Positions 21,003-51,973 of a DNA stretch of 64,000 nt are shown piece by piece (the first letter of the stretch is position 1; each line of letters starts with the position of its first letter). Source of the stretch: Rufibacter sp. LB8 (GTDB taxonomy: Bacteria; Bacteroidota; Bacteroidia; Cytophagales; Hymenobacteraceae); the NCBI RefSeq assembly GCF_014876185.1, contig NZ_JADALJ010000001.1:558001-622000 (forward strand), written 5' to 3'. The notes beneath the pieces are model-generated. The model saw nothing but the letters and a program-made list of their open reading frames with translations. It was not told where the DNA came from and did not search any database. The position numbers and the translations under genes are program-made.

Positions 21003-21752
21003 TTACTTCCTGAAAATATAAATGCGATATGAAGCATTAACCTGCAGACCATGCGATTTTATGGTTCCGGTGGAGGGAAAGGCTCCCGGTTCTGGGTTCT
21101 CCTCGCCGGTTAGTTTTTTGAATGGCAAGGCATACGCGGAAGATAAAGCGAATTGCTTGTACTTTAAGCCAATTTCCGGCAGAATGCCCAACCCGCTGGC
21201 TTTATAATCGGGGAATAACTCACTTTCTACATTATTGGTTAATCTGAGCGGTATATCTCCCAACTCCAGTTCTGATTTAAAAAAGCCTACCCCTAGTTTA
21301 GCGTAGGGCTGCCACCCGTTCCCGGAAGGCGCATACGTGAGGTTCAGTAAGAAATTTGAGTTCTCCAACGCTCCCGCCTTCAAGTACCCGTTTATCTGTT
21401 CGCCGTTTAGGTTAGCGTTTTTTATGAAACGGGCTGTTGCATAGCTGCCATTAAAACCAACTCCCACAAATAAATCCTGCGTGAGCGCATAGTCCAGGGA
21501 AATAAAATAACTGATGCCCAACCCTATTTCTGGGCTGTATTCTGCATTCTGATATCCAACGTTTTTTTCTGATAAGAGCGGCAAATAATACCCAAACCCA
21601 GCAGAAATACTATATTTTTTGTGTTGCCCAAATTGCTCAGTGGGTGCAAGTTGATTGGGGTCTATACCGGTGGTTCTGCTGGTTCCTATTTGCGCCTGCA
21701 CAGCTAAGGCCAGCCATAACAAAATTCCGGTTAGAATATATTTTGACTTCAT
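21003..21752 (-). CDS. outer-membrane beta-barrel protein
   Basis: 249 residues with a signal peptide (KYILTGILLWLALAVQAQ). The rest alternates short hydrophobic strands and turns (YSISAGFGYYLPLL, IGLGISYFISLDYAL, LFVGVGFNGSY, LGILPEIGLKYKQFALSSAYALPF), and the protein ends in an aromatic-rich strand (YRIYIFRK). This is typical of small Bacteroidota outer-membrane barrels. Ligand unknown. It is a lone gene, with an AT-rich 5' region (21753-22108) in which I see no other gene. Confidence 0.75.
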   Translation of the reverse strand: MKSKYILTGILLWLALAVQAQIGTSRTTGIDPNQLAPTEQFGQHKKYSISAGFGYYLPLLSEKNVGYQNAEYSPEIGLGISYFISLDYALTQDLFVGVGFNGSYATARFIKNANLNGEQINGYLKAGALENSNFLLNLTYAPSGNGWQPYAKLGVGFFKSELELGDIPLRLTNNVESELFPDYKASGLGILPEIGLKYKQFALSSAYALPFKKLTGEENPEPGAFPSTGTIKSHGLQVNASYRIYIFRK

Positions 21753-22108: not shown

Positions 22109-22175
22109 TGACAACGGTTAGTATAAGCGGCGGCAGAGGCCGTCGGCCGATGCTGGCGTTTATACAATGTTGTGT
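22109..22175 (-). other. attC-like site of cassette E
   Basis: On the minus strand it runs from core ACACAAC (22175-22169) to core GTTGTCA (22115-22109). Inner arms TGTATAAACGCC and CGGCGGCAG-type sequence surround a CGGCCGACGGCC centre. 67 bp. Confidence 0.8.
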
Positions 22176-22187
22176 GAAGCCATTTTT

Positions 22188-22685
22188 TTAGTAATCTCTT
22201 CTAAAATTGTATTTTCCACCTTCATCCTCATCTTCTTCATCCTCATCTTCTTCCTCTTCTTCGTATTCTTCATCCTCATCCTCATCCTCATCCCATTCTT
22301 CTTCCTCTTCCTTAGCTCCAGGCATATTAGAGGTAACTAAAGAATAGAATTTTTTCCAATCCTGACTTAGGACTGAAGTTTTACATGTTTTTTCAAAATC
22401 TTGAGCACAATCGATGATTAGCATAACCATGTTTGTCAAAGGAACCCTTCTTGAATCGATGGTGATTGAAGATGAAACAAATTTGCCCATATCTTGTGAA
22501 TATAGAGACCATAATTCATCAAATCTTAATTTTAAAGACGCACTTAAGCTGTCCATACCGCGCATATTTCTAATACCAACTGTTGAGCGCATATTGTCCC
22601 ATTGCATTAAATCTTTATAAATGCTTGTGACTAAACTCTCAACTTTATATTGACTTGTCCCTAAAATTTTATCAAAAAAGCCCAT
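22188..22685 (-). CDS. cassette-encoded protein with acidic C-terminal tail
   Basis: 165 residues, not recognised. Residues 1-125 look globular and helical, with a predominantly polar N-terminus (GFFDKILGTSQYKVESLV). Residues 126-158 are almost pure Glu/Asp, ending GGKYNFRRDY. It is the only gene of cassette E and reads toward its attC-like site, the usual cassette orientation. It is AT-rich compared with flanking chromosomal genes, consistent with acquisition. No signal peptide or membrane segment. Confidence 0.7.
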   Translation of the reverse strand: MGFFDKILGTSQYKVESLVTSIYKDLMQWDNMRSTVGIRNMRGMDSLSASLKLRFDELWSLYSQDMGKFVSSSITIDSRRVPLTNMVMLIIDCAQDFEKTCKTSVLSQDWKKFYSLVTSNMPGAKEEEEEWDEDEDEDEEYEEEEEDEDEEDEDEGGKYNFRRDY

Positions 22686-22728
22686 GTAAATTGTTTTAAT
22701 GAATATCTATTTTTTTAATTATGGTTAC

Positions 22729-22795
22729 ACACAACGGACTTGTGTAAACGGCGGCGACGGCCGTCGGCCTAGCTGGCGTTTACACGTTGTTGTGC
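22729..22795 (-). other. attC-like site of cassette D
   Basis: Minus strand from GCACAAC (22795-22789) to GTTGTGT (22735-22729), with TGTAAACG / CGTTTACA inner arms. 67 bp. Confidence 0.82.
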
Positions 22796-22836
22796 GGAGG
22801 TGTTCTTTTCAAGTTTCCCCGCGCTTTTCTCTTTTT

Positions 22837-22876
22837 CTGTTTTTGACCTGATTTTAGAAAAACAGCATGAAAACAG
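22837..22876. repeat. P40-like palindrome inside cassette D
   Basis: CTGTTTTTGACCTGATTTTAG start and CATGAAAACAG end (quoted in parts); the distal arms pair (CTGTTTT/AAAACAG), the inner arms are poor. Confidence 0.55.
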
Positions 22877-22911
22877 GAAAGCGAAGCGTTTAGCTTGTTT
22901 CGTACGCAAGT

Positions 22912-22951
22912 CCAGTTTTGGCCTTATTTCCGAAAAACAGGCCGAAAACTC
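22912..22951. repeat. second P40-like palindrome inside cassette D
   Basis: AGTTTTGGCCT pairs with AGGCCGAAAACT around a longer loop. Confidence 0.55.
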
Positions 22952-23187
22952 AATCGTCCGACCGTACGCATTGCTGATAAATTCTTTTTGCTCAAACTTA
23001 ACGTCAATTCCTCTTTTGCTGGTCAAAGTCGGGCGGCGTTCCATTTCTTTTGCTAAGCTAATCTAAAAAATCCTACTGATTTTCTTGTGCGGCTTTTGCC
23101 ACGTTAGCTGATTTTTTTCTTGTACTTCTGCTTCTCTTGCTGATAATTTTTCTGCCGTGCCAGCTGGTAAAAAGTTCTTTCACTTAC

Positions 23188-23255
23188 GCACAACGTACTT
23201 GTGTAAACGGCGGCGAAGGCCGTCGGCTGATGCTGGCGTTTACACGTTGTTGTGC
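23188..23255 (-). other. attC-like site of cassette C
   Basis: Minus strand from GCACAAC (23255-23249) to GTTGTGC (23194-23188); 68 bp. Inner arms GTGTAAACG / CGTTTACAC, centre CAGCCGACGGCC. Confidence 0.82.
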
Positions 23256-23295
23256 GGAGGTGTTCTTTTACTTTTCCCCGCGCTTTATATTATTT

Positions 23296-23335
23296 CTGTT
23301 TTTGACCTGATTTTGGAAAAACAGCCCGAAAACAG
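23296..23335. repeat. P40-like palindrome inside cassette C
   Basis: CTGTTTT/AAAACAG outer arms; the inner arm GACCTGATTTTGG is poorly paired. Counterpart of the copy at 22837. Confidence 0.55.
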
Positions 23336-23369
23336 AAAATCGGAGCGTATGACTTTTTTATTTGTCCGT

Positions 23370-23409
23370 CCAGTTTTGGCCTAATTTCCGAAAAAGAGGC
23401 CGAAAACGC
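23370..23409. repeat. second P40-like palindrome inside cassette C
   Basis: GTTTTGGCCT pairs with AGGCCGAAAAC. Counterpart of the copy at 22912. Confidence 0.55.
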
Positions 23410-23668
23410 ATTTCACTCTGTCGGTTCTGCAAGCATTTTGCGTCCGTTCTTGCTCAAACGCAACGTCAATCCCTCTTCTGCTACTTTTGCGACATTCGTT
23501 GGTCAAAGTCGGGCGGCGTTCAATTTCTTTTGTAAAGCTAATTTAAAAAATCTTGCTGATTTTCTTTTGCGGCTTTTGCCACGCTAACCGATTTTATTTT
23601 TGAACTTCTGCTACTCTTGATGATAATTTTTTCTGCAGTTCAAGTTGTCAATTCATTATTTCACTTGC

Positions 23669-23708
23669 GCACAACTACTTAATAAACATACCAGGTATAC
23701 TTATCAGC
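23669..23708 (-). other. conserved array boundary (attI-like site or attC remnant)
   Basis: On the minus strand GCTGATAAGTATACCT, then G-GT-A-TGTTTATTAAGTA, then core GTTGTGC where cassette C begins. Nearly the same 33 bases precede the first cassette of array 2. The right half (GTTTAttaAGTA-GTT) also resembles the L'-R' half of the attC sites. The leader 23709-23813 has no gene. Confidence 0.65.
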
Positions 23709-23813
23709 ATTATGTGTTTACCTAAACCTACAATTAATTGTCGTTTTTGACAAAAAACCGTACCTGTACAACCGAGCATACTATATAGCCCACAAGCAAT
23801 ATCTTAATACTTT

Positions 23814-34193: not shown

Positions 34194-34243
34194 AATTTCC
34201 GTTTTCGGGCTCATTTCTGGAAATGAGCCCGAAAACGGAAATT
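34194..34243. repeat. P40 palindrome with 5-bp extension
   Basis: Consensus core 34199-34238, centre CTGG, flanks AATTT / AAATT continue the pairing. It lies in a 490-bp gap (34024-34517) that is otherwise AT-rich and featureless. Confidence 0.92.
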
Positions 34244-46361: not shown

Positions 46362-46428
46362 GGCTAACGGTTAGTATAAAAAAACGTGCGAGGCCGTCGG
46401 CCGAGATGCCGTTTAGCCGTTGTTGGGC
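46362..46428 (-). other. attC-like site of cassette B
   Basis: Minus strand from GCCCAAC (46428-46422) to GTTAGCC (46368-46362), 67 bp, centre CGGCCGACGGCC. The inner arms are more degenerate (run of T on one side). Confidence 0.78.
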
Positions 46429-46438
46429 GGAGTACTTT

Positions 46439-46867
46439 TTATTCTGTTTCTCCTTTTTTATACTTGTCAAATTCTTTGTAAAGCCAATCAACATGTTGTG
46501 CTAGTTGAGCTCTAACAGCATTTTCATCGATTTCCTCTTCGATTTTCAATCCGTTATTAGTGACTGAAACTCTCTGCTCTTGTTTAAGCTTCTCAATTGA
46601 ATCGTAAAAATTGTCAATGAGCCAGTCACGGCAAAACATATCATTATCAGGAATTTTCTTAGTTGGATTTAGTATATCTCCTCCGGTATTTATATAATCA
46701 AAATCGTACTGTAAGGTGTTGTCTCTTGGAAAGCCTATAATATCCAGGACTATATCCCTATTATTTACACAAATCTTGTCCATCTGAATTCCTCGTTTTT
46801 CCAATTCATCGAACAAGCATTGTTGTTTATATTCTTCTAGAAGTAAGTTAATTAGATGTTCTTTCAT
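46439..46867 (-). CDS. cassette-encoded hypothetical protein
   Basis: 142 residues from the ATG at 46867 (a TTG seven codons upstream lies in the attC core and is unlikely). Mixed helical protein: MKEHLINLLLEEYKQQCLFD, a central MDKICVNNRDIVLDIIGFP, a C-terminal charged coiled region, no signal peptide. Not recognised. It reads toward its attC-like site 11 bases beyond the stop. Confidence 0.7.
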   Translation of the reverse strand: MKEHLINLLLEEYKQQCLFDELEKRGIQMDKICVNNRDIVLDIIGFPRDNTLQYDFDYINTGGDILNPTKKIPDNDMFCRDWLIDNFYDSIEKLKQEQRVSVTNNGLKIEEEIDENAVRAQLAQHVDWLYKEFDKYKKGETE

Positions 46868-46882
46868 ATTTTTATGTATTAC

Positions 46883-46949
46883 GCCCAACGGTTTGGCTAA
46901 ACGACGGCGGAGGCCGTCGGCCGATGCTGGCGTTTAGCTCTTGTTAGCG
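46883..46949 (-). other. attC-like site of cassette A
   Basis: Minus strand from CGCTAAC (46949-46943) to GTTGGGC (46889-46883), 67 bp. GCTAAACG pairs with CGTTTAGC inside; centre CGGCCGACGGCC. GTTGGGC fits the integron R' consensus GTTRRRY exactly. Confidence 0.85.
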
Positions 46950-46961
46950 GTAGGGCTTTTT

Positions 46962-47369
46962 TTAATATTTTAGATAGTCTACTTTTTCTAAAGTCCCAGC
47001 GAATTGCATTAGATGACCTTTGCTTGCAGAATTCACCAGTCCGCGAACAATAACTTTTTTATTTTTCAGCTTTTCCAGCTCTTCTTCAGGCAATAATCCT
47101 TCTTCAAAGTCCGTCCAAAGAGCATTTTTTGAATCTTTCCTGTTTGCGTCCGCCCGAGTTTTATATAATCCAACATTCTCAAATTCATAGAGCAAGATTC
47201 CCGTTGCTTCTATATATTTTCCGTCAAATCGGCTGGGATTTTCAAGAAGCGTATTAATTTCCACGCTTATATACTTAGTCGATTCTTCTTTTGTCGTTTT
47301 GAATTCTTTGGATTCATTGCAACTAAAGAGAAAAAGCGGTAATAAGATTGTTAAGAGTCTATTCTTCAT
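46962..47369 (-). CDS. cassette-encoded lipoprotein with OB-like domain
   Basis: 135 residues. Lipoprotein signal KNRLLTILLPLFLFSC with Cys17 at the lipobox. The rest resembles a small OB-fold: LLENPSRFDGKYIEATGILLYEF, KKVIVRGLVNSASKGHL, GTLEKVDYL. Such folds occur in envelope lipoproteins of unknown role. Only gene of cassette A; begins 15 bases after the boundary core. Confidence 0.75.
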   Translation of the reverse strand: MKNRLLTILLPLFLFSCNESKEFKTTKEESTKYISVEINTLLENPSRFDGKYIEATGILLYEFENVGLYKTRADANRKDSKNALWTDFEEGLLPEEELEKLKNKKVIVRGLVNSASKGHLMQFAGTLEKVDYLKY

Positions 47370-47384
47370 TTTTCTATGCCTTAC

Positions 47385-47424
47385 CGCTAACTATTGTATA
47401 AACACACTAGGTATACTTATCAGC
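47385..47424 (-). other. conserved array boundary, second copy
   Basis: Minus strand GCTGATAAGTATACCT, A-GTGTGTTTATACAATA, then core GTTAGCG. Only about six of 33 bases before the core differ from the copy at 23669-23708. The 47425-47690 stretch beyond holds no gene; it shares short words (AGCAATAT...TTAATA) with the array 1 leader. Confidence 0.65.
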
Positions 47425-47690
47425 AATATATCTTAATATTTATGTTTACCAAATGGTGCATTTTATAAAAAAGCATTGCCCTTCTGTTGGCGCTTGGTTT
47501 TACAAGTTAGAATTAAATTCCAAAATACCGAAAATGGCGATAGAAAGTAGGGAATACTAGTGAAACGGCTTAAATTTCACTTCCAATCCTATTATATTTT
47601 TAACGCCCTAAGCGCTAATTGAACCAATTACCCGGATTATTACCCAAGTAACTGTCAAGAGGAAGACGCAATGGTTTGAAGTGTAGAAAC

Positions 47691-51908: not shown

Positions 51909-51933
51909 GCGTAATTTCGCTCTTAAGAAATTT

Positions 51934-51973
51934 CCGTTTTCGGGCTCATTTCTGAAAATGAGCCCGAAAACGG
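51934..51973. repeat. P40 palindrome copy
   Basis: Consensus arms, centre CTGA. Twenty-five bases past the transporter stop. Confidence 0.92.

Follow-up and report, generated by a model that had tools for sequence, protein, structure and literature searches.

Integron-like cassette arrays of Rufibacter sp. LB8 as candidate satellite platforms of a patch-less tyrosine recombinase

The two arrays of the window

The DNA analysed here, called the window, is a stretch of 64,000 nucleotides (C1:558001-622000) of the 4.75-Mb genome of Rufibacter sp. LB8, and it holds two integron-like cassette arrays, both on the minus strand. Array 1 is composed of three cassettes (window 22109-23718), and array 2 of two, with a leader that starts at 47434, cassettes and sites at 46362-47391, and its last base at 46362. 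Their features are as follows:

23723..23754, minus strand: candidate Pc in the extended leader of array 1, a promoter-like TTTG-N20-TAGGTTTA kept in several satellite leaders (72-77% over 115-180 bp), with a presumed promoter function
23676..23718, minus strand: attI-like leader of array 1, GCTGATAAGTATACCTGGTATGTTTATTAAGTA directly before GTT; the same leader stands at array 2 and 133 bp past the recombinase stop, with related ones at other satellites
23195..23675, minus strand: array 1 cassette 1, 481 bp, without a clear ORF, identical to main-array cassette L018:18249-18729
23188..23255, minus strand: attC of array 1 cassette 1, 68 bp
22736..23194, minus strand: array 1 cassette 2, 459 bp, without a clear ORF, 78% like cassette 1
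22729..22795, minus strand: attC of array 1 cassette 2, 67 bp
22116..22735, minus strand: array 1 cassette 3, 620 bp
22188..22685, minus strand: ORF of array 1 cassette 3, 165 aa with an acidic tail, no family above cut-off
22109..22175, minus strand: attC of array 1 cassette 3, 67 bp, final site of array 1
47392..47434, minus strand: attI-like leader of array 2, 83% to the array 1 leader, matching the attI pattern
46890..47391, minus strand: array 2 cassette 1, 502 bp, identical to main-array cassette L018:8453-8954
46962..47369, minus strand: ORF of array 2 cassette 1, 135 aa with a lipoprotein-like signal (LFSC), no Pfam match
46883..46949, minus strand: attC of array 2 cassette 1, cores CGCTAAC...GTTGGGC
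46369..46889, minus strand: array 2 cassette 2, 521 bp
46439..46888, minus strand: ORF of array 2 cassette 2, up to 149 aa, no family found
46362..46428, minus strand: attC of array 2 cassette 2, cores GCCCAAC...GTTAGCC, final site of array 2

The preliminary description of array 1 had reported three consecutive 67-68-bp palindromes ending units, and this is borne out: they occupy minus-strand positions 23255-23188 (68 bp), 22795-22729 (67 bp), and 22175-22109 (67 bp) and end units of 481, 459, and 620 bp. It had also proposed that each unit starts with a 7-bp core whose reverse complement lies in its own terminal palindrome, which holds at all three units (GTTGTGC/GCACAAC, GTTGTGC/GCACAAC, and GTTGTGT/ACACAAC, in order) and in every cassette of both arrays, each starting with GTTNNNN and having the exact reverse complement of that start at the opening of its terminal palindrome. 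Across six long arrays, all four variable core bases match in 69 of 83 neighbouring site pairs, against a mean of 3.5 and a maximum of 12 in shuffles, and the paired-core pattern of array 1 is far above chance. An exact match to the own cassette start was found at 110 of 165 sites (27 loci); since just five of these 110 match their own 3' core, the paired-core rule is not a by-product of the palindromes. The cores follow the consensus GTT-[A/G]-[G/T]-[C/G]-N and do not fit the relaxed GTTRRRY suggested earlier. The same palindrome recurring free of the rule had been named as a sign against an integron-like array; the arrays checked for the palindrome obey the rule.

The palindromes could also be read as dispersed REP-like repeats without a role in recombination, and many other intergenic palindromes do occur in this genome, but the paired-core rule, the leaders, and the exact cassette-bounded copies described below have no place in such repeats. 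This explanation, of vanishingly small probability, was rejected on the core rule (69/83 against 3.5) together with the exact cassette copies.

The ORF-less cassettes belong to a repeated family, approximately 70-78% alike across arrays and species (window 22736-23675, L018, L144, L113, and L098), which suggests a role other than coding. No defence families were found in the window cassettes, and an Rfam search of the window returned tRNAs only. An outer-membrane-protein-like gene (window 21003-21752, minus strand) lies beyond the last attC of array 1 in the same lineage-specific insert. An intergenic palindrome of approximately 41 bp (CGTTTTCGGGCTCATTTCTGGAAATGAGCCCGAAAACG), probably terminator-like, has at least 34 copies in the window (e.g., 34197-34237 and 51932-51972) and many more genome-wide, mostly between genes.

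Main array, leaders, and cassette copies

A covariance model built from 28 attC of this genome gave, at a threshold of E <= 0.01, 75 matches and, after opposite-strand duplicates were dropped, 69 distinct attC; such a scan had been recommended in the preliminary description. The main array, on the same chromosome and approximately 510 kb from the window arrays, accounts for 36 of them, and the others are found at the window arrays and about 15 further places. A recombinase gene of 515 aa (L008:8623-10170) heads the main array, which reaches C1:1068.2k, and the array 1 leader recurs at C1:1091468-1091529, 133 bp downstream of its stop codon. The reported lack of an integrase thus stands for the surroundings of array 1 and fails for the chromosome, where, at contig position 1.09 Mb, there is a recombinase gene with an array of its own and the shared leader. 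Nor is array 1 an orphan attC cluster as first described, its leader being common to the integrase-bearing main array of the same chromosome and one of its cassettes being identical to a main-array cassette.

Most satellites open with an attI-like leader related to that of the main array. The leader motif is an imperfect ATAA...TTTAT inverted pair that ends in G^TT, and a strict pattern of it has four matches genome-wide, each heading an array, with 0 in the reversed control; no leader could be defined at satellites L194, L197, L198, and L199. Several satellite leaders contain TTTG-N20-TANGTTTA, which we take to be a Bacteroidetes-type promoter pattern. The leaders of L186, L189, L191, L192, L021, and both window arrays lie approximately 150-320 bp past the stop of a co-directional host gene, so host-gene read-through could possibly express satellite cassettes. 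The first cassette of the main array (L008:8015-8473, minus strand) encodes an Imm26 immunity protein (PF15428, 5e-14), and another (L008:1772-2632, minus strand) encodes a DUF6602/PD-DExK protein with a NucC-like PADLOC match of 1e-22, so defence genes may be among the cassette cargo. A near-perfect long inverted repeat (CCGTGTTATTACCCGTGTATATCCGGATATACACGGGTAATAACACGG, L008:10127-10175), possibly a regulatory site, separates the recombinase gene from a divergent 152-aa ORF.

The first cassettes of arrays 1 and 2 (481 and 502 bp) are 100% identical to two separate main-array cassettes, and both occupy the first position behind the leader in the window arrays. Identity starts at the core GTT and extends beyond the cassette by 0 bases to the left and by 3 (GTT) to the right, so that the recent moves were of whole cassettes. 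First-position exact copies are what cassette insertion at attI would predict, and nothing else points as strongly to service in trans of the arrays that have no integrase; they further suggest that a copy of the cassette stays at the donor.

The expected variation in occupancy was found among relatives: array 1 is absent in all 11 in which glycogen synthase adjoins alpha-glucosidase (site occupied in 0/11). Two other satellites, leader and cassettes alike, are absent in 15/15 relatives each, a test limited by intergenic divergence. At the array 2 locus, relative G008 has, next to the same gene, a leader of its own and other cassettes. Between species, intergenic DNA is too diverged for such empty sites to date leaders relative to cassettes. 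These data bear on the proposal that the satellites, rather than being duplicated platforms, arose when the same recombinase inserted cassettes off-target at leaders already present as secondary genomic targets. Integrons are known to insert cassettes off-target (PMC10127599), and the leaders vary, sharing mainly ATAA...TTTAT...GTT; but several of them retain a likeness of 72-77% over 115-180 bp, which exceeds what a target motif would require, and leader plus cassettes occur in 0/15 relatives at each of the two tested loci, within the limit set by intergenic divergence. This origin carries a modest probability; it concerns how satellites arose, not the cassette mechanism, and is compatible with trans service by the recombinase.

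The recombinase and its relatives

The recombinase matches Phage_integrase (PF00589, 2.7e-42) and has the complete catalytic set R-K-H-R-H-Y, with R342, K367, H431, R434, H457, and Y466 invariant in the family alignment (A2). The IntI patch of roughly 42 residues is missing in 35/35 family members: catalytic boxes I and II are 91 residues apart in 34 members and 92 in the remaining one, as against 133 in the 16 measurable canonical Bacteroidota IntI and 96-98 in the XerC/D of this genome. The patch is likewise absent in the alignment to VchIntIA, which skips residues 204-248. The score stays below the TIGR02249 cut-off. The family forms one clade in the tree (97/97), apart from canonical IntI (100/100) and separate from XerC/D, in a topology whose deeper order is blurred by long branches, and by sequence its core is nearest XerA/XerD. 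Since the defining patch was tested for and is absent, the recombinase is not a member of the IntI family. The earlier suggestion of searching for an IntI-type recombinase with the extra domain would therefore miss the array-linked enzyme, which is without that domain.

The structure predicted for the P. indicus homologue (mean pLDDT 70) resembles XerA (5hxy, VIA-align Z 22) and IntI4 (Z 19) in its catalytic half, and its N-terminal half is predicted to be made up of two beta-beta-alpha-beta-beta-alpha modules (pLDDT 80). This N-terminal extension, approximately 200 residues in most family members, is absent from homologue G033, which has arrays, so the domain is not essential. The N-terminal modules bear a weak likeness to the damage-recognition-like domains of HARP (E 0.01, below the cut-off) and XPB (Z 5.8, within the background); the top Foldseek rows, reverse transcriptases at very low TM-score, were set aside.

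An orthologue is encoded in 15/15 same-genus genomes and in 27 of the 39 genomes searched (E <= 1e-60). In most loci with enough sequence, a leader lies 129-155 bp past the recombinase stop and is followed by a paired-core array, so that the place of an attI next to the integrase gene is taken by a putative, conserved leader. Paired-core links are 11/11 at L098, 12/12 at L109, and 12/14 at L116, the last from another family. Relative G017 has two recombinase copies (L094 and L101), each with its own leader and array; in the draft relatives L096, L099, L102, L104, L106, and L107, contigs end a few kb past the recombinase, as is expected if repeated attC break assemblies. The family profile matches 94 of 296 sampled Bacteroidota genomes (E <= 1e-55). 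Of the distant Bacteroidota homologues, 14 could be inspected over at least 10 kb; 7 of these have linked attC behind them, and the same detector found no array at the other 7; controls for this set gave one link on opposite strands and two when reversed.

The window arrays, with 3 and 2 sites and no nearby integrase, fall under the usual definition of CALIN (at least two attC, no nearby integrase) by our own attC calls rather than IntegronFinder's model. They could accordingly be ordinary CALIN, that is, remnant attC clusters of a canonical IntI integron, its integrase having been lost or being encoded elsewhere, and canonical IntI does occur in 84 of the 296 sampled Bacteroidota genomes. However, neither this genome nor those sampled from its order gave a match above the IntI cut-off, a different recombinase heads the main array here and in relatives, and leaders are shared and cassettes have moved recently, which makes this origin quite improbable. 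The likeness to CALIN as used by IntegronFinder lies in attC clusters without an adjoining integrase, but each of the present arrays is headed by an attI-like leader of its own, and cassettes of theirs recur in an integrase-bearing array on the same chromosome.

Hairpins, mechanism, and comparison with known integrons

The attC hairpins range from 52 to 132 bp. In the oriented set of 110 attC, many of which share descent and are thus not independent events, the bottom strand is more stable than the top in 104, with a mean difference of 3.2 kcal/mol (DNA parameters); a bulge-tolerant detector run on both strands showed no bias, as palindromes are then counted in both directions. Canonical attC carry extrahelical bases on one arm (PMC2727003), and such bases are missing here, since the stem pairs best without a one-arm bulge in 97/110. 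The few canonical Bacteroidota attC checked the same way mostly have the L'' bulge in the expected orientation, a control of 12 sites found by the bulge-tolerant detector with both strands counted, so that the extrahelical comparison leans on PMC2727003. An A.C mismatch at top-strand stem positions 9-13, equivalent to a bottom-strand G.T pair, is present in 106/110 attC, with the reverse orientation in 3, and was seen by inspection in very different stems as well, including 52-54-bp sites and those of G033.

Such hairpins also bear on the possibility that the cassettes are pdif-like, Xer-dependent modules mobilised by the XerC/XerD of the host. XerC/XerD-type recombinases are encoded in this genome, and the array-linked core is nearest XerA/XerD by sequence; but hairpins of this size, with a per-cassette core rule and strand-biased folding, differ from short double-stranded dif-like sites, and the array-linked recombinase falls in a clade apart from XerC/D. 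This possibility is extremely slight. XerA, XerC, and XerD share with the present enzyme the spacing and fold of the catalytic domain, but the latter is linked to cassette arrays, has the N-terminal extension in most members, and forms its own clade.

The window arrays are very probably satellite platforms of an integron-like cassette system, served in trans by the patch-less recombinase 510 kb away. The 515-aa XerA-like tyrosine recombinase, encoded beside the main array, would act in trans on the satellites by recognising attI-like leaders and single-stranded attC hairpins, most likely on the bottom strand, and circular cassettes would be inserted at the first position behind the leader, from which they may be expressed. 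As only one strand would be used, the donor could keep its copy of the cassette, and this would account for both exact duplicates. The reaction would dispense with both the IntI patch and the one-arm extrahelical bases of the hairpins, whose roles may fall to the conserved mismatch pattern and possibly to the N-terminal beta-beta-alpha-beta-beta-alpha modules. Shared leaders, paired cores, exact copies, the missing patch, the folding strand bias, and the association in relatives are the sequence-level grounds of this reading, and that the system works like an integron appears well supported by them, as does the circular-cassette logic first proposed for array 1.

As in IntI superintegrons, there is an integrase, an attI-like site, and a long array of mostly small-ORF cassettes, attC-type hairpins have the R''/L''/L'/R' layout with core complementarity fixed by the circular cassette, and the newest cassette adjoins attI. 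Unlike IntI superintegrons, the recombinase is without the additional domain and in another clade, the attC stems carry no one-arm extrahelical bases, the recombinase gene is followed by attI and by cassettes that run in its direction, and satellite platforms are many. Somewhat more likely than not is a separate, phylum-wide class of Bacteroidota integrons, in which a XerA-derived patch-less recombinase, often with an added N-terminal DNA-binding region, would capture single-stranded cassettes through other hairpin marks (the A.C/G.T mismatch) and serve more than 10 attI platforms on one chromosome.

The lineage was rightly called one in which such arrays are little described: in the IntegronFinder 2.0 survey, complete integrons of the Bacteroidetes/Chlorobi group were found only in Chlorobi, Ignavibacteriae, and Salinibacter (PMC9024848). 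In open-access full texts on integrons of Bacteroidia and Cytophagales, including Pontibacter, Hymenobacter, and Rufibacter, no description of such a system was found; preprints and most subscription papers lay outside this scope, and an earlier report is possible. The patch has been termed a defining characteristic of integron integrases (PMC9668308), and an intI survey retained only patch-containing matches (PMC2426708). Because surveys define integrons by the patch, patch-less systems would be missed or logged as orphan attC clusters, and integrons able to capture genes may be widespread in a form that has gone unrecognised.

If the system works as proposed, the patch would not be needed for folding-dependent cassette capture, and a natural patch-less test case would be at hand for how Xer-type enzymes became integron integrases. 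Integron gene-cassette arrays spread antibiotic-resistance genes in other settings; here, a phylum thought to be nearly empty of complete integrons would hold a large pool of cassette genes, arranged as one enzyme with many platforms.
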